Origin: Kiritimatiellia bacterium
GTDB taxonomy: Bacteria > Verrucomicrobiota > Kiritimatiellia > RFP12 > UBA1067
Direction of reading: 5' to 3'
NCBI GenBank assembly: GCA_017525225.1
Contig: JAFXTB010000077.1
Coordinates: 1-42,103 of the forward strand
DNA length: 42,103 nt
A program made the position numbers and the translations under genes. Of this stretch, positions 13,917-24,896 are shown in pieces. Each line of letters begins with the position of its first letter. Within the stretch, counting starts at the first letter, position 1. The notes under the pieces are model-generated. The model saw only the letters and a list, made by a program, of their open reading frames with translations, was not told the origin of the DNA and did not search any database.

Positions 13917-14372
13917 CTATTCTGCTTTGTTACGCGGTACAAGCAAGGCGGACACGCTCATTTGCGACGACCCGAAAAGGGCGCCTATGATGCCGGCCTC
14001 GCTCGCTCCGGCGAATGACGCATCCGAATCCGTATAGTGAACGTCGGCCAGGTCGCAGTTGCGGCTCTTCGCGACATTCAGCAGCGCCGTCTGGAGTTCG
14101 TTGACCCCGACCTGGTCGCTGAAGAACGAGAATCCGCCGTTGATGGACTGCTTTTCCGGATTCCATCTGAGATCGCCCGAGAACAGAGGGATGGTCCATA
14201 GCACATAGTATCCGGATGTGCTGATCACGACCTGCCGAAGCGTCTGTTTGCCCTCGATGCCCTTTACCGAGATGCCGTCCAGCTTCCCTGGCGAAGAATA
14301 GCTTATCGTTGCGCAGCCTGCCGCTATCGCAGCGAGCGCGGCCGCCAACGCTCCAGTTTTCAGCGCTTTCAC
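13917..14372 (-). CDS. Small lipoprotein, paralogue B
   Basis: Starts with GTG, preceded by AAAGGAC. The signal peptide has a lipobox AIAAGC with Cys at about residue 20. The mature domain (about 130 aa) aligns by eye with the downstream lipoprotein at the (V/L)LWxIPxxxG(L/D)xW block and the following helix. It ends in a charged tail. As first gene of the pair it would start the transcript, but I see no strong promoter in the 40 bp upstream. No known family recognised; the pairing suggests two subunits of one envelope assembly, which is inference only. Confidence 0.8.
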   Translation of the reverse strand: MKALKTGALAAALAAIAAGCATISYSSPGKLDGISVKGIEGKQTLRQVVISTSGYYVLWTIPLFSGDLRWNPEKQSINGGFSFFSDQVGVNELQTALLNVAKSRNCDLADVHYTDSDASFAGASEAGIIGALFGSSQMSVSALLVPRNKAE

Positions 14373-14580
14373 CTTGATCTGTCCTTTCTAGCCACAATCA
14401 TTATTCCCCGCCATCCTTCAGCCAATGCGACACCCGTTGCACGGCATGATCCGACGGACACCTCCAAGCGTTTCAAACGACTTGAGAGTGGACGCAGTAT
14501 GACATATCCCTACGTGACTTGCAAGATGATCGGGCACACATTGACTTTTTAGGCCGAAAATGCGGACCAGACAACAACAC

Positions 14581-14629
14581 AGTGAAGCGTACATAGACGG
14601 GCCGGAAGGTCTGCCGCCTGTCGCCGCAA
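14581..14629 (+). repeat. 49-bp direct repeat, copy 1
   Basis: Starts AGTGAAGCGTACATAG and ends CTGTCGCCGCAA. It matches 15761-15809 with a single mismatch (14597 versus 15777). Copy 1 abuts the broken end of the TOTE-like pseudogene; copy 2 lies just before a REP-like hairpin. Confidence 0.85.
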
Positions 14630-14953
14630 CGGCAGCTTTCTGCTCCGGTCTTAGTTCGCCGTGGAACTCTACGTGCAACGGGACACCCCCCATAACGCTT
14701 GTCAACAATATCCTCCCTGAACCCGTCATCTTTCAATATCTGAACCGCAGAATCAAGGTATCCTCTCGGTAATCGGCGATGGGCAGTCTCCTGGGATCAA
14801 AGTGGACCATAGCGGAAGAAAAAACGTCCACGGCTTCTCTTCGTCTCGCGTAATATCATACCTCCTGGCGAACACGTCACCCCGTCCGCCGAACAGCGAA
14901 CGGAAGAACATCACCTTCTCTGCGTTGGATGAATGCTTGTCAATAATGGCCAT
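14605..14953 (-). pseudogene. Decayed TOTE-type primase/helicase remnant
   Basis: Read on the minus strand from an ATG at 14953, the first 32 residues (KVMFFRSLFGGRGDVFARRY in their centre) resemble the start of the archaeo-eukaryotic primase domain of TOTE conflict-system proteins. That frame breaks by 14753. A second piece (KDDGFREDIVDKRYGG, about 14735-14688) and, after a frame change at a G6 run, VPLHVEFHGELRPEQKAAVAA (to about 14610) resemble the N-terminus of their helicase domain. The middle several hundred residues are gone. So the locus is a truncated, frameshifted relic. An intact -10 (14971-14979) still precedes it. The family match is from memory; the decayed state is directly visible. 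Confidence 0.55.
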
Positions 14954-14970
14954 AATGTGAAATGAGGGGA

Positions 14971-14979
14971 ATTATACCA
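14971..14979 (-). promoter_or_regulatory. Extended -10 before the TOTE-like remnant
   Basis: Minus-strand TGG-TATAAT, 17 bp before the ATG of the broken gene. Confidence 0.5.
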
Positions 14980-15009
14980 TTTTTTCGGTGTCATGGTGAA
15001 ACCGAAATG

Positions 15010-15018
15010 TGCTATAAT
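15010..15018 (+). promoter_or_regulatory. Promoter of toxin-antitoxin pair
   Basis: TGC-TATAAT (TATAAT at 15013-15018), 28 bp before the antitoxin ATG, with AAAGGA at about 15035-15040 as ribosome binding site. Confidence 0.65.
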
Positions 15019-15046
15019 AGACAGCGTTTGAGCAAAGGAACAAAAC

Positions 15047-15292
15047 ATGCCAGCGGTACTAGAACAAGTTAATCAGATGAGTACGGCCGAAAAACTGTAC
15101 CTAATGGAGTATCTTCTTAATTCGATTTCTCGTACGGTCGAACAATATGACCACGCCGCTGGTGTACAGTCGCCAATAAAGCGCAAGAAGCCATGCATCA
15201 GGGATTTCATCGGATACGGCAGAAGATTTCATCCAGAGTATCGCTCGACGGAAGACGTGATGCGTGAACTTCGCGAGGGAGAAGAAGAATGA
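15047..15292 (+). CDS. Putative antitoxin partner of PIN toxin
   Basis: A small acidic-tailed protein of 81 aa encoded directly before a PIN-domain gene and overlapping it by ATGA. The N-terminal half (MSTAEKLYLMEYLLNSIS, residues 11-28) is helical, as in addiction-module antitoxins that begin with a short helix-rich domain (compare ...LSxxEKLxLLExLWxSI...). The C-terminal half is extended and charged, ending in ELREGEEE, the kind of tail that wraps a PIN toxin. It has no visible AbrB, ribbon-helix-helix or Phd signature. The role rests on gene order and these generic features. Confidence 0.7.
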   Translation: MPAVLEQVNQMSTAEKLYLMEYLLNSISRTVEQYDHAAGVQSPIKRKKPCIRDFIGYGRRFHPEYRSTEDVMRELREGEEE

Positions 15293-15714
15293 TTTGGGTC
15301 GTGGACACATGTGTCTTGATCGACGTGTTTCGTGGGGACAAGACATTTTCAGAGATGTCATCCATGGCGCTACAGTCAAAACTCGATGATGTACTGACAG
15401 TGGCACCTATCACATACGTAGAATTGTCTCCAGAGTTCAATGGCGATGTCGCTGCGCAGGATGCATTTCTGGACGCAATGTGGATTCAACGCGATTTCAA
15501 GGGTAGCAAGGAGGCCGTTCTTCTCGCCCACAAGGCGTGGTACGAGCATATCATGCGCAAGCGTGCCGGAAATGCCCCAAAGCGTCCGATAGCAGATGTT
15601 CTCATCGGGGCTTATGCCCTGCAGAAAGGCGGCCTTATTACCCGCAACGAGGCGGACTTCAAGGCCCTTTATCCCAACCTGACGATCTTCAATCCTGTTC
15701 CGTCTGCATCATGA
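15289..15714 (+). CDS. PIN-domain ribonuclease toxin (VapC-like)
   Basis: Predicted Mg2+-dependent endoribonuclease that would block growth when freed from its antitoxin. The PIN acidic residues are all in place: D6 in WVVDTCVLIDVF, E45 in YVELS, D103 in IADVLIGAYAL, and D123 with N120 in TRNEADFKALYP. Length (141 aa) is typical. The start overlaps the antitoxin stop (ATGA), giving translational coupling and the usual antitoxin-first order. VapC toxins commonly cut tRNA or the sarcin-ricin loop; the target here is unknown. Confidence 0.88.
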   Translation: MIWVVDTCVLIDVFRGDKTFSEMSSMALQSKLDDVLTVAPITYVELSPEFNGDVAAQDAFLDAMWIQRDFKGSKEAVLLAHKAWYEHIMRKRAGNAPKRPIADVLIGAYALQKGGLITRNEADFKALYPNLTIFNPVPSAS

Positions 15715-15723
15715 ATCTCAAAT

Positions 15724-15744
15724 CACAAACTGGAAACGAAAGGA
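15724..15744 (+). repeat. Short heptad run
   Basis: Three 7-mers, CACAAAC, TGGAAAC, GAAAGGA, in the style of the rnf spacers, just after the PIN toxin stop. Confidence 0.4.
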
Positions 15745-15760
15745 AGAAGGAAGAAACAAC

Positions 15761-15809
15761 AGTGAAGCGTACATAGGCGGGCCGGAAGGTCTGCCGCCTG
15801 TCGCCGCAA
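15761..15809 (+). repeat. 49-bp direct repeat, copy 2
   Basis: Second copy of the element at 14581-14629. It runs directly into the REP-like hairpin at 15811. Confidence 0.85.
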
Positions 15810-15810
15810 A

Positions 15811-15837
15811 GGTAGGGCGCGATGACCCCATCGCGCC
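15811..15837 (+). repeat. REP-like hairpin with GGTAGGG prefix
   Basis: GGTAGGG at 15811-15817 followed by a perfect 9-bp stem GGCGCGATG/CATCGCGCC (15816-15824, 15829-15837) with a 4-nt loop. Same layout as 9581-9610. Confidence 0.75.
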
Positions 15838-15924
15838 ACCGCCGAAGCGGAGTGACATTCATCCGCCGGAGCCTCGCAAGAGGCGAAGGAGGAAGATGAT
15901 TTAAGCAATGCTGCAAGGCAGTCG

Positions 15925-16034
15925 CCGTCTGAAACTTAGGAACTTTCAACGAATGACGACACTATGCAGAGGAAACGCGCAAGCGTTTTGCCTCTCTTTG
16001 TGTTTCATTCATGGTTTCCTAAGACCTCAGACGG
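15925..16034 (+). ncRNA. Candidate structured RNA, long rod with GCAA loop
   Basis: A 110-nt imperfect hairpin. Stems in order: CCGTCTGA/TCAGACGG (15925-15932, 16027-16034), CTTAGG/CCTAAG (15935-15940, 16018-16023), GAATGA/TCATTC (15951-15956, 16005-16010), ACAC/GTGT, and AGAGG plus AAACGC closing on a GCAA tetraloop (15979-15982). A T-rich run follows at 16049-16059. No ORF uses this stretch. The rod with internal loops recalls 6S-like RNAs, but a miniature transposable element would look similar. Strand is assumed from the GNRA loop and T run. Confidence 0.5.
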
Positions 16035-16089
16035 AACACGAAGAGAGGTTTTCTTTTTTCGTTCCGATTGCCGAGTAGCAGAGATAAAA

Positions 16090-16195
16090 GTACGCCACTT
16101 TCTTATCGTGCCTTGAGTGGAATGACGTACGAACCAAGGCGCGAGAAAAAAGAAAAGATTCCCATGTCAGATATTCCTTCCGATTGGAAGTATCT
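16090..16195 (+). other. Possible pseudoknot and hairpin upstream of secreted protein
   Basis: GTACGCCACT (16090-16099) pairs with AGTGG plus CGTAC (16116-16120, 16126-16130). GCCTTG in the loop (16110-16115) can pair with CAAGGC outside it (16135-16140), an H-type pseudoknot. A further hairpin (AGATA..CTTCC/GGAAG..TATCT) lies at 16169-16195. Together with 15925-16034 this fills the 560-bp gap before the next gene. It may be a long 5' leader or an independent RNA. Confidence 0.35.
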
Positions 16196-16277
16196 GTGTA
16201 GGAAGATTAGATACTTCGCTTGGCAACTGCGCCACAAGTGGAGTGTTCGCCTAAAGGCGCGGAGAACGGAACAAGAA

Positions 16278-17732
16278 ATGAAAAGGTTCGTGATTGTAGC
16301 AGTTTCACTGCTCATGATGGTTGGTTTCTGTGATGATAGGGGAATCGTAAAAGTTCGTGGCAGAGGTACTGGTACGGACAAGACGGAAGCGTTGAAAGAC
16401 GCATACCGCGATGCTATAGAAAAGGCCATAGGCCTGTATGTCGATGCGGAACAGATGGTCAAGAATGAGGAACTGGTGAAAGACCAGATTCTCACACAGT
16501 CCAACGCCTACATCGAGAAATACAATATCGTCATTGAGGGGAAGTCGCCAAGCGGTCTTGTTACGATCACAATTCTTGCTGAAGTACGTAAGCGTGACCT
16601 TGCTAGGAAGATAAAAGACATCATGCCGTCGCAACAGGTCAACCTCTCAGATGTCAGTAAGAACCTTCATGCGCAGATAGTCACGGATTTCAAGGCAAAC
16701 GAAGACGCGCTTTCGATCATCAAGAACGAGCTCAAGGTGCTTTCGCCTGTAAAGCAACTCATGAAAGCCTCTTTGGGCGCTACTAAGCCAGTCGTTGAGG
16801 CAGTCAAGGAAGATCCGTCGCTTGTGAGGCTATGGTATCCTGTCAAGATCGAGGTTGATCCGGACAAATACTACAAGGAGTTCGTTCCAAGGTGGAATCG
16901 AATACTCGACCAGATAAAAACCGCGCCGGCCAAACGGTTTGATTTGAAAAACGAGTTAAAATATGTTAATGAATATAAGGCTTATATCGTAAAGAAACAT
17001 GGAACTTCCCGTATGCAAAAATCTGGAGTTATGACATGTTGCAATGAAGTACGAAACATGTCATCACTTGAATCTTCTGATCCCCTATCAACCTATGGTA
17101 TAGCTTTAAATGAAGAATATAAGACGACAACTTTTTTGTCCGTTCAGATTAACGGTAGAAATTATGTCTTACATGGACATGGCATAATGGGCAATGCTTA
17201 TTACTACAACGGCTGGGGAATTCGTTTCTCTGATCGCCTAGGTGAGAGGATGAGTGGAGCACGGTTTGTAAGACGGAGGTTCTCTGGTAATATTCCAGAG
17301 AGTTGTACATTTGATGTTGGTATTGTAAAAACTGCTCGAGGATATACATTGTCAGGATGTCTTTATAGACTTTCTTACAAATGTTGGGAGGAAATCGTGC
17401 GCTGGCAGAATTATTTTCTTTCACCAGAGACAAGCAACAAGTATCCTGATTATGCACCAAATGCAACTGTCACTACCTATGCGCTGTCATTCAAGAATAC
17501 GAATGGCGATGAAGTGGCAGGGACGAGTATAGTTGTTAGGAACATTGACATTTTAAATTTCGCTACGACAATATTAGAACACGGAGATGATTATGTAGGT
17601 CAAAAGCGACTCTGGTTCATTTCGCCGCTTGTCGGCGGTTTCGCCAAGAGTTATGTCAAGTGGGTGAGTATCGATATCCCAATGGACGATGTGGCGAAGA
17701 TCGTCACGGCTTCAATTTCGGTCGAGGAGTGA
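16278..17732 (+). CDS. Secreted FlgT-N-like envelope protein
   Basis: I chose the ATG at 16278, since MKRFVIVAVSLLMMVGFC makes a clean signal peptide and the frame upstream covers the RNA-like leader. Residues about 25-115 (RGRGTGTDKTEALKDAYRDA, then AIGLYVDAEQMV) resemble the N-terminal domain of FlgT and related surface lipoproteins: a G-x-G strand, a helix with AL.dA....A.G.yV, and then a VT(I/V).AEV strand. Residues 150-484 match nothing I recognise and end with VSIDIPMDDVAKIVTASISVEE-like text. The gene is strongly AT-rich in 16920-17600, unlike its neighbours, which suggests transfer. It is followed 47 bp later by another secreted protein and is probably co-transcribed with it. Confidence 0.65.
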   Translation: MKRFVIVAVSLLMMVGFCDDRGIVKVRGRGTGTDKTEALKDAYRDAIEKAIGLYVDAEQMVKNEELVKDQILTQSNAYIEKYNIVIEGKSPSGLVTITILAEVRKRDLARKIKDIMPSQQVNLSDVSKNLHAQIVTDFKANEDALSIIKNELKVLSPVKQLMKASLGATKPVVEAVKEDPSLVRLWYPVKIEVDPDKYYKEFVPRWNRILDQIKTAPAKRFDLKNELKYVNEYKAYIVKKHGTSRMQKSGVMTCCNEVRNMSSLESSDPLSTYGIALNEEYKTTTFLSVQINGRNYVLHGHGIMGNAYYYNGWGIRFSDRLGERMSGARFVRRRFSGNIPESCTFDVGIVKTARGYTLSGCLYRLSYKCWEEIVRWQNYFLSPETSNKYPDYAPNATVTTYALSFKNTNGDEVAGTSIVVRNIDILNFATTILEHGDDYVGQKRLWFISPLVGGFAKSYVKWVSIDIPMDDVAKIVTASISVEE

Positions 17733-17741
17733 TCCTCGGTT

Positions 17742-17769
17742 ACAAAACAAGAAACCACAAACAAAAAGG
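17742..17769 (+). repeat. Heptad run containing ribosome binding site
   Basis: ACAAAAC, AAGAAAC, CACAAAC, AAAAAGG: four 7-mers, the last forming the Shine-Dalgarno sequence for the gene at 17780. Confidence 0.5.
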
Positions 17770-17779
17770 AGCAATCCAA

Positions 17780-18493
17780 ATGAAGAAAATAATGACACTC
17801 GCGGCTTACGCACTTGTTGCGTCCGTCGCATTTGCCCAGGAACAGGATAGGGTCAAGGAGAATGCCTCCAATCCGGCAGTTGAGGAAATCCTTACTCAGC
17901 CAGATGGCGTGAGCCTGATCAGGAACGAAAACGATGGCTCGTTGCAGGTGTTCGCCCGTGGTACGGCATCGTATGACTTCGGCGATGTGCGGGATATCCG
18001 CAGCAAGACAAAGGTTGCCGAACTTCGCGCAAAGGCTGCATTGTCCAAGTTCTTCAACGAGGTCGTCGAAGTAGAGGAATCTGCCACAAGCGGGGAAGGG
18101 CGCATGTCGAAAGCCGTTTTGACGCAGACTGGTGAAGGTGAAGTCGTGAAGAAGTCCATCACCAGAGAGAACATGGAAGCCATAAAGGAGACGCTTACCG
18201 TACGCTCGGCGGCAATTCTATCCGGCATTCTAACGTTGAAGACCATTAAGATTCCGACAACAGGGAGCAAGACGTCTGGCGAGATCCAAGTGACATTGGG
18301 TATCAGTACCAAGACGCTTGCCGCTGCTGCCGAGGCGCACAACATGATAACGGACAGCATGAACGCAAGGCGGGCGATTGGCGAGAAAGCGAGAGAATCC
18401 AAGAGGCCAGAGACGGGTAGGCAGAATTGCGGTTCGGATTGCGGCGCTAATCAAAACAAGCCAGAAGTCCGCACCAACAACACTCTGTTCTGA
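17780..18493 (+). CDS. Secreted LPP20-like protein with probable 3' frameshift
   Basis: Start at 17780 after AAAAAGGA; residues 1-19 form a signal peptide ending AFA. The mature part carries the block VFARGTASYDF...KVAELRAKAALSKFF, a strand-helix arrangement like LPP20/FlgT-type domains, then a long helix and GEIQVTLGIS (a late strand). After residue about 205 the frame becomes polar and low in pattern (RPETGRQNCGSDCGANQN) and stops at 18493. In a different frame, 18498-18597 encodes SAITLERTTDGKAKAMV and ends NGTPPTFFLRVRVK before a stop, which looks like the true C-terminus. So the gene is probably frameshifted, or the assembly has an indel. Function unknown; likely envelope. Confidence 0.65.
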   Translation: MKKIMTLAAYALVASVAFAQEQDRVKENASNPAVEEILTQPDGVSLIRNENDGSLQVFARGTASYDFGDVRDIRSKTKVAELRAKAALSKFFNEVVEVEESATSGEGRMSKAVLTQTGEGEVVKKSITRENMEAIKETLTVRSAAILSGILTLKTIKIPTTGSKTSGEIQVTLGISTKTLAAAAEAHNMITDSMNARRAIGEKARESKRPETGRQNCGSDCGANQNKPEVRTNNTLF

Positions 18494-18609
18494 CAAGCGC
18501 CATTACGCTGGAACGCACCACCGATGGCAAGGCCAAGGCGATGGTCACGCCTAACGGAACACCGCCTACTTTCTTCCTGCGTGTGAGGGTGAAGTAGCAG
18601 CGGTACTAT

Positions 18610-18658
18610 AAATCCCCCTCATCGGGCAATGTCGTTTTGTCTGAGGAGGGGGATTTTT
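18610..18658 (+). terminator. Rho-independent terminator
   Basis: Perfect 11-bp stem AAATCCCCCTC (18610-18620) and GAGGGGGATTT (18646-18656), then TT. It ends transcription of the secreted-protein pair. Its right arm also forms part of the first 22-bp repeat unit. Confidence 0.75.
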
Positions 18659-18730
18659 GAGCCACACGAAGGGGGATTATGAGCCATTATAAGGGGATTT
18701 TTGAGCCACACGAAGGGGAATTTTGAGCTA
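18649..18730 (-). repeat. 22-bp iteron-like tandem repeats
   Basis: Four units starting GGGGAT or GGGGAA at 18649, 18671/18672, 18693 and 18715, an exact 22-bp period. Consensus of units 1 and 3: GGGGATTTTTGAGCCACACG. Unit 2 diverges after GAGCCA and unit 4 is cut short. The 3' end of the winged-helix gene runs into the array, so units 3 and 4 are coding. Two related units lie at 20423-20458 beside the shrunken copy. Confidence 0.8.
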
Positions 18731-19016
18731 GCACAGGTCTTTTCAGCTTATAGAGAATGGTATATATTCTATTGGTCGGACGCTTCTTGATGTACTGAAG
18801 CTCTATGTATCCGCAGTTCCTGAGGCCCGTGATTTCTCGCTTGATCGATGAACGGCTGACGTTTAACCTTTTCGCAAGATTTCCAAGGTCGGGTATGACG
18901 AGCTGGGTGGTTTTGTCCATCCTGCTTTCAAGATCGCGCAATATCTGTTCGGGAAGATCGGACGGCAATGATGGCGGTCTTCCTCTTGGTCTTCCTGTGG
19001 CTCTATGACTTTTCAT
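18687..19016 (-). CDS. AT-hook plus winged-helix DNA-binding protein
   Basis: I start it at the ATG 19014-19016, since a -10 lies 7 bp upstream of it. Residues 8-14 (GRPRGRP) are an AT-hook, which binds the minor groove of A/T tracts. Residues about 30-90 form a winged helix: LVIPDLGNLAKRL then VSRSSIKREITGL (recognition helix) and a wing GYIELQYIKK. The 109-aa protein ends in sequence made by the 22-bp repeats. The setting (small DNA-binding protein, adjacent iteron-like array, T/A-rich promoter) resembles a replication-initiator or self-regulating mobile module. The first 19 codons and promoter are duplicated at 20467-20575. No named family recognised. Confidence 0.75.
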   Translation of the reverse strand: MKSHRATGRPRGRPPSLPSDLPEQILRDLESRMDKTTQLVIPDLGNLAKRLNVSRSSIKREITGLRNCGYIELQYIKKRPTNRIYTILYKLKRPVLAQNSPSCGSKIPL

Positions 19017-19070
19017 GGCGTATATTCTATCATATTTCCTCGCCGGACAATTGTGATGTTTTGTATTTTG
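18962..19070. repeat. 109-bp direct repeat, copy 1
   Basis: Identical by eye to 20467-20575 (offset 1505). It contains the promoter and first 19 codons of the AT-hook/winged-helix gene. The identity stops sharply at both ends. Confidence 0.9.
19024..19032 (-). promoter_or_regulatory. Extended -10 of AT-hook gene, leaderless spacing
   Basis: Minus-strand TGA-TAGAAT ending 7 bp before the ATG. Confidence 0.55.
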
Positions 19071-19099
19071 TTTTAACCTAAGCGTCACAGTTGACGGCA

Positions 19100-19195
19100 A
19101 TGATGCCTTTGAAGTTGTTAAAGCTCAAGGAAATGGGCATAGTATCGGATGGTGAGTACGAAGAGAAACGGCGAAAGATACTTGCAGAGATATAA
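19100..19195 (+). pseudogene. SHOCT-domain gene fragment
   Basis: Thirty-one codons whose end, LKLLKLKEMGIVSDGEYEEK followed by a basic helix, matches the SHOCT (short C-terminal) domain: a helix, a G-I-(I/V)-(S/T)xxE(F/Y) turn, and a basic helix. The body of the gene is missing; the frame upstream hits a stop at 19078-19080, at the edge of the duplicated block. It is probably a 3' remnant left by insertion or deletion. Confidence 0.5.
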
Positions 19196-19269
19196 ACTTC
19201 GCGCTCTGCTTTCGCTACCAAAAGGTTTGTTTAATGGAAGTTCATGTAAGTCCAAGGCGACCATAACGC

Positions 19270-19296
19270 GGCGGGCAGGGGGCTGCCCGCCCTACC
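19270..19296 (-). repeat. REP-like hairpin beside transposase
   Basis: GGCGGGCAG/CTGCCCGCC (19270-19278, 19283-19291) followed by CTACC, i.e. the GGTAGGG-type REP in reverse. It is 58 bp from the 3' end of the transposase gene. Confidence 0.7.
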
Positions 19297-19303
19297 AGTC
19301 GGG

Positions 19304-19340
19304 CGGTTCGTTCTTTATGCACGTGAAGGTGAGGCCGTAA
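19304..19340 (+). pseudogene. 3' fragment of a secreted-protein gene
   Basis: The frame ends SGGSFFMHVKVRP before a stop, very like the orphan tail PPTFFLRVRVK at 18560-18597. I read it as the end of a related gene cut off by the REP hairpin. It is too short to be sure. Confidence 0.3.
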
Positions 19341-19353
19341 CGTGCCATGTTGC

Positions 19354-20361
19354 CTATGAAAGCGTTGCTATGACGAGGTCGATCATTTCATGGCAGCGCT
19401 CATAGAGCATCTTGCGCGTTGGCTTGCGGGTGGAGGCTTCGTAGAGCGATAGGAAGAGCATGCGGCCTTGGGCGCAGAAGCGTTCCTTCTCGCGCGGCGG
19501 ATGCCATCGCGGGGAGAATCCTTCTGGCGAAAGCACGATCCATTTACCGCCCGCCTTGGCGATGGCATTGCCGCAAGCCTTTTCAAGCGGGCTCATGAAA
19601 GTGGAAACGCCTGCGCCACCTGGCCCGATCCGGGATGCCGTCGCCAGAAGGGCATTCCATTCCGGCGAGCCGGGCGGCGTGGTGCGATGGCCCTTGATTG
19701 GCACAAGCCCCGGCAATCGCAGTATTTCAGTGTTGCCATAGGCGAACCATTCGCACCCTAAAAAGGAAACCCGCCTTGCGCTGCCGAAGAAATGCGCATT
19801 CTTGCGGCGCATGGCGGCACGCATTGGATTCTCCCTGATGTAGCGGCGAAATGTGGCGAGCTGCCCGTCGCGCTTCACAATCCAATCGTGCCATTCCTTT
19901 TCGAAGATATCGCGTGGCGCGCTGCGACCCGCCGCAGACGCGGCGGGCGCAACACCCGGCGCATTACCCTGCACAGCCCTATCGGTGTGCGCAATACCAG
20001 GCGCAATGCCAAGGGTGTTGCGAGTTGCCGCGTCTGCGGCAACAACACGCCAATATTCACCGCGCAGCGCTTTCGCCAGCTGGCTCACGATCACCCCAAG
20101 CGCAACACGATCTGGCGTAGCTCTTATCTTGATCATCAGGTGGATATGATCCGGCATCACCACGAATGGCGATATCTCTTCAATGCACCGCCATCTCCTA
20201 TGGAATGTGCTGATGGTCCTGTCAAATGCATCTGTGATGGCATTTCGAACAAGCCGCCCATCTTCGCCGATGACGGAGAAATCCGAAATACCCGGTAACC
20301 GCTTGAGCGTTACCATGTAGAAAAACGGTGACTTGTAGTCAAAGTTGAATAGTCGTGCCAT
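19354..20361 (-). mobile_element. REP-associated tyrosine transposase (Y1, HUH)
   Basis: Single-strand DNA transposase of the IS200-like REP-associated (RAYT) family, which is thought to move REP palindromes. The HUH motif is H72-I-H74 in MPDHIHLMI (69-77). The catalytic tyrosine is Y174 in FRRYIRENPMRA. The N-terminus (FYMVTL..) is typical. Residues about 108-149 are an Ala/Gly/Pro/Thr-rich insert that family members lack; on DNA this insert is flanked by two perfect hairpins (19928-19947 and 20024-20043). The C-terminal 130 residues (after about 200) include SPEGFSPRWHPPREKERFCAQGR, an additional domain seen in a subset of such proteins. A REP-like hairpin lies just past its 3' end. It looks intact, with a leaderless-type promoter. 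Confidence 0.85.
19928..20043. repeat. Paired palindromes inside the transposase gene
   Basis: CCCGCCGC-AGAC-GCGGCGGG (19928-19947) and GTTGCCGC-GTCT-GCGGCAAC (20024-20043), each with a perfect 8-bp stem. Their loops are complementary and CGCAACACCC/GGGTGTTGCG form a further inner inverted repeat. The whole block is in frame. Confidence 0.8.
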
Positions 20362-20368
20362 GTCTGTG

Positions 20369-20377
20369 ATTATATCA
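20369..20377 (-). promoter_or_regulatory. Extended -10 of transposase, leaderless spacing
   Basis: Minus-strand TGA-TATAAT ends 7 bp before the transposase ATG at 20361. Confidence 0.6.
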
Positions 20378-20422
20378 TAACATCATGCTGAATGGGCGAG
20401 AACGCATGGACGAACAAGAGTG

Positions 20423-20575
20423 GGGGACTGAGCCACAGAAGGGGATTTATGAACCAGTACAATCGAACGGCAATGATGGCGGTCTTCCTCTTGGTCTTCC
20501 TGTGGCTCTATGACTTTTCATGGCGTATATTCTATCATATTTCCTCGCCGGACAATTGTGATGTTTTGTATTTTG
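20423..20575 (-). mobile_element. Internally deleted copy of the AT-hook module
   Basis: It keeps the promoter and first 19 codons (109 bp identical to 18962-19070) at its right end and two iteron-like units (GGGGGACTGAGCCACAGAAG and GGGGATTTATGAACCAG) at its left end, but lacks the winged-helix part. The remaining frame (20447-20521) would encode a 24-residue AT-hook peptide ending FDCTGS. The pattern of two retained ends and a lost middle is that of a non-autonomous MITE-like derivative. Confidence 0.6.
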
Positions 20576-20616
20576 GTGTAAAGTTCGCAATTCTATTAGG
20601 GGCATTGCCGTGGTTG

Positions 20617-20625: not shown

Positions 20626-20664
20626 GTATCAAAGTTTACGCGGAAAACAGGAGGAGACAACGTC

Positions 20665-23268
20665 ATGACGAGAAGATCTGTTGCGATGATGGCGGAGGCG
20701 GGCGCGATACTCGTCGCGGCGCTTTTAGCCGGCAGGGCGGCAGCGGAGAATGCCGCGCCGGCGGACGAGCTGTCCAGATCCGGCAAGGACGCCTCGGCAG
20801 CCGTTCCTGTCGCGCCTGAGGAATATCGTCGGCCGCGCGGCTGGAAGCCGGTCCTCTACCCGAAGACCCTTCGGCAGATAGCCCGAGACCATTCGCAGGA
20901 GACGATGGAGCGCGCGAAGGCGCAGATGGCCAGGGTCGATGCCGTGAATGCTGCCGGAAGGTACAAGGCCACGGGCGTCTCCATGGACTCCCATCCCTGT
21001 CCCGAATGGTTCATCGACGCGAAGTTCGGCATCTTCATCGACTGGGGGCTCTGGTCACTGGCGTCGTGGTGCCCGTACGTCAAAGGTGCGCGGCTGTATC
21101 CAGACTGGTATGAATTCCGCTGCGACGTGAAATATCCCGAGGGCCACGCATTCCACGGTATGAAGGAATACCACGAGAAGAACTGGGGAGCCGACTTCAA
21201 GCGCGATCATTTCATAGACCTCTTCCGTGGCACGAAGTTCGATGCACCCGCCCTTGCGAGCCTCTTCGTGAAATGCGGCGCCAGATATGTGGTGCCTTTC
21301 CTCAAGCACCATTCGGGTTTCTGCCTGTGGGACTGTTCCTATACCTTCCGCGACTCGGTGGACCAGGGTGCGCACCGCGATTTCGCGCGGGAGATGTCCG
21401 ATGCATGCCGCGCGCACGGACTCAAGTTCGGCGTCTACACCTCGCAGGCCGGGGAATGGGAATATCCGATCCTCCAGGACGATGGCTCGGTGAGGATATG
21501 GAAGGAGGCATCCACGATGGTCGATTGTACCCCCGACATGGAATGGAAGGCTTCTGGCAAGATCGCGGTGAAGGACTTCGTCCGCGACTACATCGTGCCC
21601 CAGACCACCGAGTTCATCGACAAGTACGACCCCGACATCCTCTGGTACGACTACGACTGGGCCACCTTCGCCCACGAGAACGGCAGCTACGACATAACCG
21701 CCTACTTCTACAACAGGGCCGAGGGACGCAAGGAGGTCGCCTGCAACGACCGCTATGGCAAGGGCAGGCCCGAGGAGGTGAAGGGGCGCGGCAAGCTGAA
21801 GGTACTGAGGACGGTGCGGGGCGACTTCTTCACCGACGAATGGGGCGACACGGAGGAGTTCCTGGACCCTGCGAAGTGGCATCCGTGGGAATCCTGCTCC
21901 GGCATCTCCAAGGCGTACGGTAACCATTGGCAGGAGACCGCCGACATGGTCATGTCCGAACGCGAGTTCGTGATACACTTCGCCGACATCGTGGCGCGGG
22001 GCGGCAACCTGCTCCTGCTCGTCAATCTCGACCCGCAGGGCGCTATCCCGGCCGTCCAGCGCGAGCGCCTTATGCAGATCGGCAAGTGGCTTTCCAGGTA
22101 TGGCGAGGCGATCTACGCCACACGCATCCTTGCCCCGTTCTCCACTCCGGACATTGACTACACGCAGTCCAAGGACGGCTCCACCGCCTATGCCATCGTC
22201 AAGAACCCTTCCGCCGAGATCACGCTAAAGTGCAAGCTCCCCGCAGCCGTTACCGTCACGCTCGTCGGCGATAGCGCTCCACTTCGCACGGAAAGGACCC
22301 CCACCGGGCTCAAGGTGGCGTTGCCGCCATCATACGCCTCTGCCACCGTCCCGTTCGCGCTGAAAATGCGGGCTTCTGGACGCGGCAAGCGGGACGCGAT
22401 AGACTTCAAGGGACTCTTCCCGCCAGATGTCAAGACCATCGGCATCGTTTCCGTGTCCTCCCTGATCCCGACAAACGTCTTCACCCGAGGCACGAACCTC
22501 CTTGTCGCGGCTGGATATCGCGTGAAGGTCATGCCTAACGTCCTGAAGAAGGAGCCTCCGGAGGTCAAGGCCAGGCTCTTCGAGCAGGCGTGGCTGGATC
22601 CAGAGATTGACTTCCTCCTGTTTTCGCGGGGAGGGCAGGGCGCGGCGAACGTCATTACCCGCATCGACTGGGAGCGTCTTCGCGGACGCAACATGCGTGT
22701 GCTGGGATTCAGCGACGTGACGGTGGTGCTTGGCGCGATGCTTTCCAAGGGTGTGGGCGTTCCGATCTCCGGTCCGTCGCTCTCGACCCTTTCGACCTAC
22801 AACACGAGGGAATCGCGCGAGCGCCTTGCCATGATGCTACACGGCACGCCGCCGCCGATCCAGCTCACGCCCGTCAAGCCTTGTGCCGCGCCGGTCGGCG
22901 GCAAGTCCTTCGTCGGCGTGCTGGAGCGATTCATCGTGCTGTCGAAACTAGGGTATCTTCCGTCGTTCGACGGGCGGGTCATCTTCATCGAGGGGATTTC
23001 GAAGTATGCAGCCGACTCGGAATCGGCGCTTGAGAGGCTGAGGGCCGCGGGCGTGTTCGACAAGGCGGCGGCGGTGGTGTTCTGCGATTTCAACAGGAAG
23101 TGGGAAAGGACCAGGGTCGAGGCGCTTTTCACCCGCTTTGCCGAGAAGGTGCCGTGTCCGGTGTTCTCCGGCTATCCCTACGGACACGTTCCAAGGAGTT
23201 TCGCGATCGATTGTTCGCGTCCCCTCCGCATCTCGCCGACGGGCCTGCTTGAATGGCAGGCGCGCTAG
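20665..23268 (+). CDS. GH29-like alpha-L-fucosidase fused to S66 LD-carboxypeptidase
   Basis: A two-domain exported protein of 867 aa. Residues 1-28 form a signal peptide (TRRS then a hydrophobic run ending GRAAA). The GH29-like TIM barrel spans about 95-580: EWFIDAKFGIFIDWGLWSL, HHSGFCLWDCSYT (about 213-225) and ILWYDYDW, whose first Asp, D329, is the expected nucleophile (the family usually has WFDG). Residues about 583-867 form a full S66 domain, which in relatives cuts the L-Lys/D-Ala or Dap/D-Ala bond of murein tetrapeptides: IGIVSVSS start, SRGGQGA, nucleophile S683 in GFSDVT, E776 in FIEGISKY and H841 in GYPYGHVP, in normal spacing. There is no stop or frameshift between them. A strong Shine-Dalgarno sequence sets the start; the longer upstream frame runs through duplicated non-coding DNA. 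Confidence 0.85.
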   Translation: MTRRSVAMMAEAGAILVAALLAGRAAAENAAPADELSRSGKDASAAVPVAPEEYRRPRGWKPVLYPKTLRQIARDHSQETMERAKAQMARVDAVNAAGRYKATGVSMDSHPCPEWFIDAKFGIFIDWGLWSLASWCPYVKGARLYPDWYEFRCDVKYPEGHAFHGMKEYHEKNWGADFKRDHFIDLFRGTKFDAPALASLFVKCGARYVVPFLKHHSGFCLWDCSYTFRDSVDQGAHRDFAREMSDACRAHGLKFGVYTSQAGEWEYPILQDDGSVRIWKEASTMVDCTPDMEWKASGKIAVKDFVRDYIVPQTTEFIDKYDPDILWYDYDWATFAHENGSYDITAYFYNRAEGRKEVACNDRYGKGRPEEVKGRGKLKVLRTVRGDFFTDEWGDTEEFLDPAKWHPWESCSGISKAYGNHWQETADMVMSEREFVIHFADIVARGGNLLLLVNLDPQGAIPAVQRERLMQIGKWLSRYGEAIYATRILAPFSTPDIDYTQSKDGSTAYAIVKNPSAEITLKCKLPAAVTVTLVGDSAPLRTERTPTGLKVALPPSYASATVPFALKMRASGRGKRDAIDFKGLFPPDVKTIGIVSVSSLIPTNVFTRGTNLLVAAGYRVKVMPNVLKKEPPEVKARLFEQAWLDPEIDFLLFSRGGQGAANVITRIDWERLRGRNMRVLGFSDVTVVLGAMLSKGVGVPISGPSLSTLSTYNTRESRERLAMMLHGTPPPIQLTPVKPCAAPVGGKSFVGVLERFIVLSKLGYLPSFDGRVIFIEGISKYAADSESALERLRAAGVFDKAAAVVFCDFNRKWERTRVEALFTRFAEKVPCPVFSGYPYGHVPRSFAIDCSRPLRISPTGLLEWQAR

Positions 23269-23341: not shown

Positions 23342-23390
23342 ATCGGGCTGTGATGGAGAAGGTAGGAACTTCTTGAATGGAAGGGAACAG

Positions 23391-24896
23391 ATGAAATTCC
23401 AGAAGATGCTTTTATGGCTGGCGGCGCTGTGCGCCGCAGGCTGCATGAGGCCGTCGTGGCTTACGGTGGGGCCGGACTACGAGGAGCCGGAGGTGGTAGC
23501 CCATGATGCGCCGCCGCCTGATGCGGGCTATCCCACCACGAACAAGACCGCCACGGGCGAATTCGCCCCGGCCACGACGAACGACGATCCGCGCATGGCG
23601 CTTTCGCCCGAGGCGATCGTATGCTGGTGGTGCCGCTTCGATGACCCGATTCTCACGAACCTGGTGTCGTTGGCGGCCTCGAACAACCTGTCGTTCGCTA
23701 TGGCGAAGGCGCGGCTCATGCAGTCGCGGTGGCTGCTGCTGGGCAAGGCATCGAGCCTGGTGCCGCATCTCGACATGTCCGGTTCGGCGCGCCATTCGGA
23801 GGCGCACCGCAACAACTCTTCGCTCTATTCGTCCCACAAGAGCTCCGGCACGCGCGCGTCGCATACGGATCTCTTCAAGGGCGGGTTCGACGCCACGTGG
23901 GAGATCGACATCTTCGGCGGCGTGAGCCGCGAGGTGGAGTCGGCCTATGCGTCGGTGGAATCGGCGGAGTACTCGCTGGCGGATGCGTGGGTGTCGCTCA
24001 CGTCCGAGATCGGCAGCAGCTACATCCAGCTGCGCACGATACAGGAGCGCTTGAAGGTGGCGCGCACCAACCTGAAGCTCCAGAGCGAGACGTACGACAT
24101 CCTGAAGTCGCGTCTCGATTCCGGCATCGGTGATGAGCTTGCCGTGAATCAGGCGAAGTACAACGTGGAGCAGACGCGCGCCTCGATCCCGAACCTGCTC
24201 TCGCAGGAGGAGAGCTTCAAGAACTCCCTGGCGGTGCTCTGCGGCATGATGCCCGGTGCCCTGCACGACGAGCTGCAGACGCCCGACGACCGCGACTGGC
24301 TGATCGCGCCGCAGCGGCTCGATTCGATCCCCCTCGACCTGATGCGGAACCGTCCGGACGTCAGGTCCGTGGAGCGGGCGCTGGCCGCGCAGGTGGCGTC
24401 CGTGGGCGTGGCGACCTCCTACCTCTACCCGAAGTTGTACCTCAACGGTTCGCTCGGGCTGGAGTCGGTGAAGATCCAGAAGTTCACGAACCGCGGATCG
24501 CTCTACAGCTGGATCGGCCCCAGCTTCTCGTGGCCGATCTTCCAGGGCGGCAACCTCATCGCCAACTTGAAGGCCGAGGAGAGCAAGATGGACGAAGCGG
24601 TGCTGAAGTACGAGCTTGCGATGCAGAACGCGTTCGCCGAGACGCGCAACGCCTATTCGGCGTACACGCAGGAGTACCACCGCTACCAGTCGCTGCAGGG
24701 CGCCGTGAAGGCGGCGCAGGACGCGGTGAACATCTCTCAGGACCTCTACAAGAACGGTCTTGCGGACTTCAACAACGTGCTCGACGCGCAGCGTTCGCTG
24801 CTCACGCTGGAGGAGGCGCTCACGATCAGCCGCGGCAAGATAACGGAGGATCTCATCGCCCTGTTCAAGGCGCTCGGCGGCGGTCTTGCGATGTGA
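23391..24896 (+). CDS. NodT/OprM-type outer membrane efflux lipoprotein
   Basis: TolC-fold outer-membrane channel of a tripartite RND efflux or secretion system. I start it at the ATG 23391, which opens the lipoprotein signal MKFQKMLLWLAALCAAGC with lipid-attachment Cys at residue 18. The mature protein has the family start VGPDYEEPEV, then duplicated OEP repeats: the GGFDATWEIDIFGG block near 165-178 (usually FDAxWExDxFGG), YIQLRTIQERL, and in the second half SFSWPIFQGGNLIANLK and LYKNGLADFNNVLDAQRSLL. At 501 aa it is full length. No adaptor or inner-membrane pump gene lies nearby, so it must pair with partners elsewhere. Expression is likely repressor-controlled through the operator at 23314-23335. 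Confidence 0.93.
   Translation: MKFQKMLLWLAALCAAGCMRPSWLTVGPDYEEPEVVAHDAPPPDAGYPTTNKTATGEFAPATTNDDPRMALSPEAIVCWWCRFDDPILTNLVSLAASNNLSFAMAKARLMQSRWLLLGKASSLVPHLDMSGSARHSEAHRNNSSLYSSHKSSGTRASHTDLFKGGFDATWEIDIFGGVSREVESAYASVESAEYSLADAWVSLTSEIGSSYIQLRTIQERLKVARTNLKLQSETYDILKSRLDSGIGDELAVNQAKYNVEQTRASIPNLLSQEESFKNSLAVLCGMMPGALHDELQTPDDRDWLIAPQRLDSIPLDLMRNRPDVRSVERALAAQVASVGVATSYLYPKLYLNGSLGLESVKIQKFTNRGSLYSWIGPSFSWPIFQGGNLIANLKAEESKMDEAVLKYELAMQNAFAETRNAYSAYTQEYHRYQSLQGAVKAAQDAVNISQDLYKNGLADFNNVLDAQRSLLTLEEALTISRGKITEDLIALFKALGGGLAM

Follow-up and report, generated by a model that had tools for sequence, protein, structure and literature searches.

An in-frame fusion of a GH29 glycoside hydrolase with an S66 peptidase, seen in one genome of an uncultured relative of the rumen Kiritimatiellae

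Why should a glycoside hydrolase and a peptidase share one reading frame? The window, by which we mean the whole 42,103-nt stretch of DNA that was analysed, comes from the draft genome (180 contigs) of an uncultured bacterium related to the rumen Kiritimatiellae. It carries a gene that a preliminary description had read as an exported fucosidase joined to an LD-carboxypeptidase, with, as one suggestion, a substrate bearing both fucose and a peptide. The features of this gene are as follows.

20650..20656, + strand: RBS-like GGAGGAG ahead of the ATG at 20665 (read from the sequence)
20665..23268, + strand: GH29-S66 fusion gene, 867 aa (single open frame; Pfam)
20665..20745, + strand: signal-peptide-like N-terminus, residues ~1-27 (basic start, hydrophobic core, AAA before EN; by inspection)
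20932..22107, + strand: GH29 catalytic domain, residues 90-481 (PF01120, Alpha_L_fucos, 2.3e-75; fold match to ClAgl29A/B)
21040..21042, + strand: Asp126, at the place of T. maritima His34 (alignment)
21649..21651, + strand: Asp329, GH29 nucleophile position (aligned to T. maritima D224)
21838..21840, + strand: Glu392, likely GH29 acid/base (aligned to T. maritima E266; conserved in the clade)
22141..22374, + strand: GH29 C-terminal beta domain, residues ~493-570 (weak PF16757, 493-557; strands in the model)
22368..22386, + strand: junction, from the end of GH29 homology to the start of S66 homology (DNA homology to relatives)
22438..22752, + strand: S66 N-terminal domain, residues 592-696 (PF02016, Peptidase_S66, 2.8e-18)
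22711..22713, + strand: Ser683, S66 nucleophile position (alignment to LdcA-type enzymes; invariant in 30 kin)
22900..23208, + strand: S66 C-terminal domain, residues 746-848 (PF17676, Peptidase_S66C, 6.2e-13)
22990..22992, + strand: Glu776, S66 triad (same alignment; invariant in 30 kin)
23185..23187, + strand: His841, S66 triad (same alignment; invariant in 30 kin)

Translation gave a single frame of 867 codons without a stop, in which Pfam recognised GH29 and both S66 domains, confirming that one in-frame protein joins GH29 to a complete S66 unit. The same frame stays open upstream as far as 20392 (958 codons). Starts at 20449 and 20392 are in frame and would give about two hydrophobic segments; they were not favoured. 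The likelier start is 20665, since GGAGGAG precedes it and a signal-peptide-like stretch directly follows the ATG. The protein is probably exported, as had been proposed, judging from inspection of this N-terminus.

Is the first half a fucosidase? Its family is clear: the Alpha_L_fucos model scored 254.6 bits (curated cut-off, 25.2), and Asp329 and Glu392 supply the Asp nucleophile and Glu acid/base of GH29, both positions being kept from the T. maritima alpha-L-fucosidase (1hl8, 1hl9) of the same family. The two enzymes differ in the pocket. The T. maritima protein has His34, a residue of its fucose-binding site, whereas the fusion has Asp126 instead of this fucose-site His of alpha-L-fucosidases (EC 3.2.1.51). 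Asp occupies the position in 18/18 members of the GH29 clade compared, as it does in ClAgl29A and ClAgl29B from Cecembia lonarensis (7xsf, 7xsg, 7xsh), and His is kept in two rows of the wider family (L030 and L041). T. maritima Phe290 is aligned with Tyr418 of the fusion, a part of the pocket from which no C6 specificity was inferred. The GH29 half was mostly well predicted in a full-length model, and ClAgl29A/B, stand-alone proteins without S66, were its top matches in both sequence (1.9e-97, ~34% identity) and fold. By these relatives and the common Asp, the GH29 half is nearest to the ClAgl29-type alpha-L-glucosidases. In a review, ClAgl29A/B are listed as alpha-glucosidases with reference to a paper entitled 'Discovery of alpha-L-glucosidase' (PMC10154630). 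With ClAgl29A/B nearest and Asp in the place of His34, the name fucosidase becomes doubtful even as the GH29 assignment stands: this half is unlikely to be a classical fucosidase and may not cut fucose at all. The clade is a conserved, uncharacterised group of GH29 proteins in rumen Kiritimatiellae with a pocket residue in common with alpha-L-glucosidases, which bears on the existence of alpha-L-glucosides in nature. Some of the stand-alone kin have genes for GH43, GDSL/sialate-type esterases and acetyl xylan esterase as neighbours, which suggests plant cell wall glycans as their target.

The C-terminal half, when checked against Pfam, matched both S66 domains above their cut-offs (66.7 vs 25 bits and 49.8 vs 23.7 bits). 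Ser683, Glu776 and His841 match the triads of solved LdcA-type enzymes and are unchanged across 30 related S66 domains; these residues, like Asp329, lie where the preliminary description had placed them. In the full-length model this half was poorly predicted; the likely cause is that MAFFT misaligned the S66-only rows. A model of the S66 half on its own, aligned with 28 kin, reached a pLDDT of 93.2 and a pTM of 0.90, and its PDB matches (TM ~0.8) were headed by P. aeruginosa LdcA (PA5198; 1zl0, 1zrs), with an Oxalobacter muramoyltetrapeptide carboxypeptidase and MccF-type enzymes also present. By domain, triad and fold it is a member of peptidase family S66. The narrower label of LD-carboxypeptidase fared less well: against the NCBIfam LdcA equivalog the S66 half scored 55.7 bits vs a cut-off of 378, and for this reason murein tetrapeptides are only a guess as its substrate. 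P. aeruginosa LdcA itself is only ~20% identical to the S66 half and has no glycosidase domain. Much closer are the stand-alone S66 genes of two relatives, G058 and G055 (L018 and L019), with 67-79% identity and the identical triad; they differ in being separate genes that carry their own signal peptides. A precedent for an exported S66 carboxypeptidase is the LdcA of N. gonorrhoeae (PMC5646250), which differs in being unfused.

Both halves fell in one match only in the host genome, among the 115 genomes of its family and the 346 of its class, a class search in which the top two candidates per genome were scored and a weak second case could escape; at 1/346 class genomes, this is not a recurrent family. 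No GH29-S66 fusion was found in 295 genomes of a Prevotellaceae-centred class, no plasmid match spanned over 80% of the query, and a pattern scan of genome contigs gave no second case. A literature search for S66 joined to glycoside hydrolases likewise found nothing. The fusion is a new combination of two known enzyme families, as had been suspected when it was called unfamiliar, and not a new kind. An unfused counterpart of the GH29 half occurs in ~16 relatives (65-81% identity); other relatives have one of the S66 half, with G058 (76%) and G055 (67%) closest. Further candidate GH29-S66 fusions had been suggested by long open frames that surround S66 in several genomes. Most of these frames arose by chance in GC-rich DNA, and where a fusion was real the partner was a different one.

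This distribution weighs on the idea that the protein is a selected bifunctional enzyme whose active sites cooperate on a composite substrate (a glycopeptide or glycosylated murein, for instance). Both catalytic sets are intact and one export signal serves both, and the only PF01120 match and the only PF02016 match of the host genome both lie within the fusion gene, all of which would fit such an enzyme. The fusion is, however, confined to one genome; in all the relatives seen the GH29 and S66 genes stand apart, and no conserved linkage of the two was found in the neighbourhoods examined; and the GH29 half is probably no classical fucosidase. Moreover, both S66 and GH29 domains are fused to other partners in this phylum, and where domain joining is common the inference from a GH29 and S66 pair to a single substrate is weakened. 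We consider cooperation on a composite substrate distinctly unlikely, and the substrate with both fucose and peptide was not borne out: the halves are always separate in the relatives seen, which tells against that function and leaves the fused ORF itself standing. Very unlikely, in our estimate, is a bifunctional exo-enzyme that would strip a rare alpha-L-hexose (L-glucose- or L-galactose-like) and trim a D-amino-acid peptide off the same material, so joining plant-glycan and murein scavenging.

The anatomy of the junction bears on whether the join is real. DNA homology to GH29 genes runs up to 22367 and that to S66 genes begins at 22387. Stand-alone GH29 proteins normally stop at residue ~569-574; the exception, from the same clade as the fusion (L012:781-4590), extends in frame into an added beta-helix domain. 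On the S66 side, the nearest unfused proteins each open with a signal peptide, and in G058 the last part of this peptide, GYGGSKQDVID, aligns against the fusion linker SGRGKRDAID. Nothing remains at the join of the GH29 stop, of a spacer or of the S66 signal peptide; an unassigned linker of ~20 nt stands there. Readthrough, a missed stop, a frameshift or a single-base error can thus be ruled out as the source of the fusion, and with sequencing error excluded such a join must come from either a rearrangement or a chimeric assembly. A chimera of a GH29 contig with an S66 contig, formed during metagenome assembly, would suit a singleton in a draft of 180 contigs, the more so as the nearest kin of each half belong to different genera. 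It would nevertheless have had to join them in frame, exactly at the GH29 end and the end of the S66 signal peptide; the junction sequence occurs once in the genome, no exact repeat of at least 14 nt common to the two halves was found, and their GC3 values are alike (0.82 and 0.80). A chimera is accordingly rather improbable, and the join, which comes from one draft assembly, is probably real. If so, the state that preceded this natural gene fusion can still be seen, both parent genes persisting unfused in relatives.

We favour, with a probability of roughly 0.6, an accidental, lineage-specific in-frame fusion that gave one export signal to two separately exported, independent exo-enzymes. This reading draws on the intact ORF, the two domains, the invariant triad and S66 fold, the junction at the GH29 stop and S66 signal-peptide end, and the unfused parents in relatives. 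A rearrangement would have brought the gene of an exported S66 protein to the 3' side of a GH29 gene, with loss of the GH29 stop, of any intervening spacer and of the S66 signal peptide. The mature S66 would thereby be attached through a short linker to the GH29 C-terminal beta domain, and a single signal peptide would export both. The GH29 half would then take a terminal alpha-L-sugar off plant glycans by a retaining Asp/Glu mechanism, an L-glucose- or L-galactose-like sugar being at least as likely as L-fucose. The S66 half would independently trim a C-terminal residue, perhaps of murein-type peptides, by Ser-Glu-His. The benefit, if any, would lie in common export and equal dosage, not in a common substrate.

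When might this have happened? Trees place the GH29 half among members from other genera (~80% identity) and the S66 half beside G058, with G055 next. G021, the only other genome of the host genus, carries a GH29 that is more distant (66%), and its S66 genes belong to other, distant groups (~39%). The efflux gene 3' of the fusion (23373-24893) is present in G021 at 77% identity, and no match to the S66 end was found in the 1.1 kb upstream of it there, which suggests that the fusion gene is probably a recent arrival at its present place. A recent fusion could also carry its S66 half as an unneeded passenger heading for loss. The S66 end branch is longer in the fusion than in its sister (0.21 vs 0.067), the distribution is that of a singleton, and a 120-nt repeat just upstream has recently been duplicated. 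Against such decay, the S66 half has neither stop nor frameshift, keeps its triad and has a confident fold, with pairwise dN/dS from 0.18 (0.18-0.19 for S66 and 0.10-0.14 for GH29, window versus kin), values that mostly predate the fusion and so are no evidence of selection on the fused protein. We regard loss of a passenger as unlikely, and an accidental fusion of two probably working enzymes remains the preferred reading.

Several minor observations concern the surroundings. Just upstream of the fusion lies a GC-poor island (~14300-20600; GC 0.45-0.57 vs 0.60-0.68 around), with ORFs lacking a Pfam match at 16068-17729, 17660-18490 and 19357-20361, as well as one PIN-domain and one HTH protein. 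The copies of the 120-nt direct repeat (98% identity) are at 18957-19076 and 20462-20581, with a third copy (94%) elsewhere in the host genome (G000:C68); the second ends ~80 nt before the fusion gene and encodes a hydrophobic stretch in the fusion frame. A 36-nt unit (GGGGATTTTTGAGCCACACGAA...) occurs in three copies at 22-nt spacing at 18649-18728, with a similar motif near 20430, and a 57-nt direct repeat (95% identity) is found at 14579-14635 and 15759-15815, 1180 nt apart.

Further arrangements of the two families were seen in relatives. In one (L023) a different GH29 gene (3-1337) adjoins an exported S66 gene (1372-2373) in divergent orientation, and the GH29 homologue of G104 is split over two frames (L017 and L039), either as a frameshifted copy or through assembly error. 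Exported S66 proteins of three genomes carry an N-terminal domain of ~300 aa that has no Pfam match and looks propeller-like by eye (L065:3947-5764, L066:435-2252 and L073:2771-4717). In other genomes of the phylum, S66 recurs with a C-terminal alpha/beta hydrolase (L088:2046-3752, L089:1942-3654 and L090:1142-2800). Finally, at L062:2327-7999 S66 leads into an extensive run of repeats that includes a passenger-associated transport repeat (PATR), probably an autotransporter-like S66 protein.
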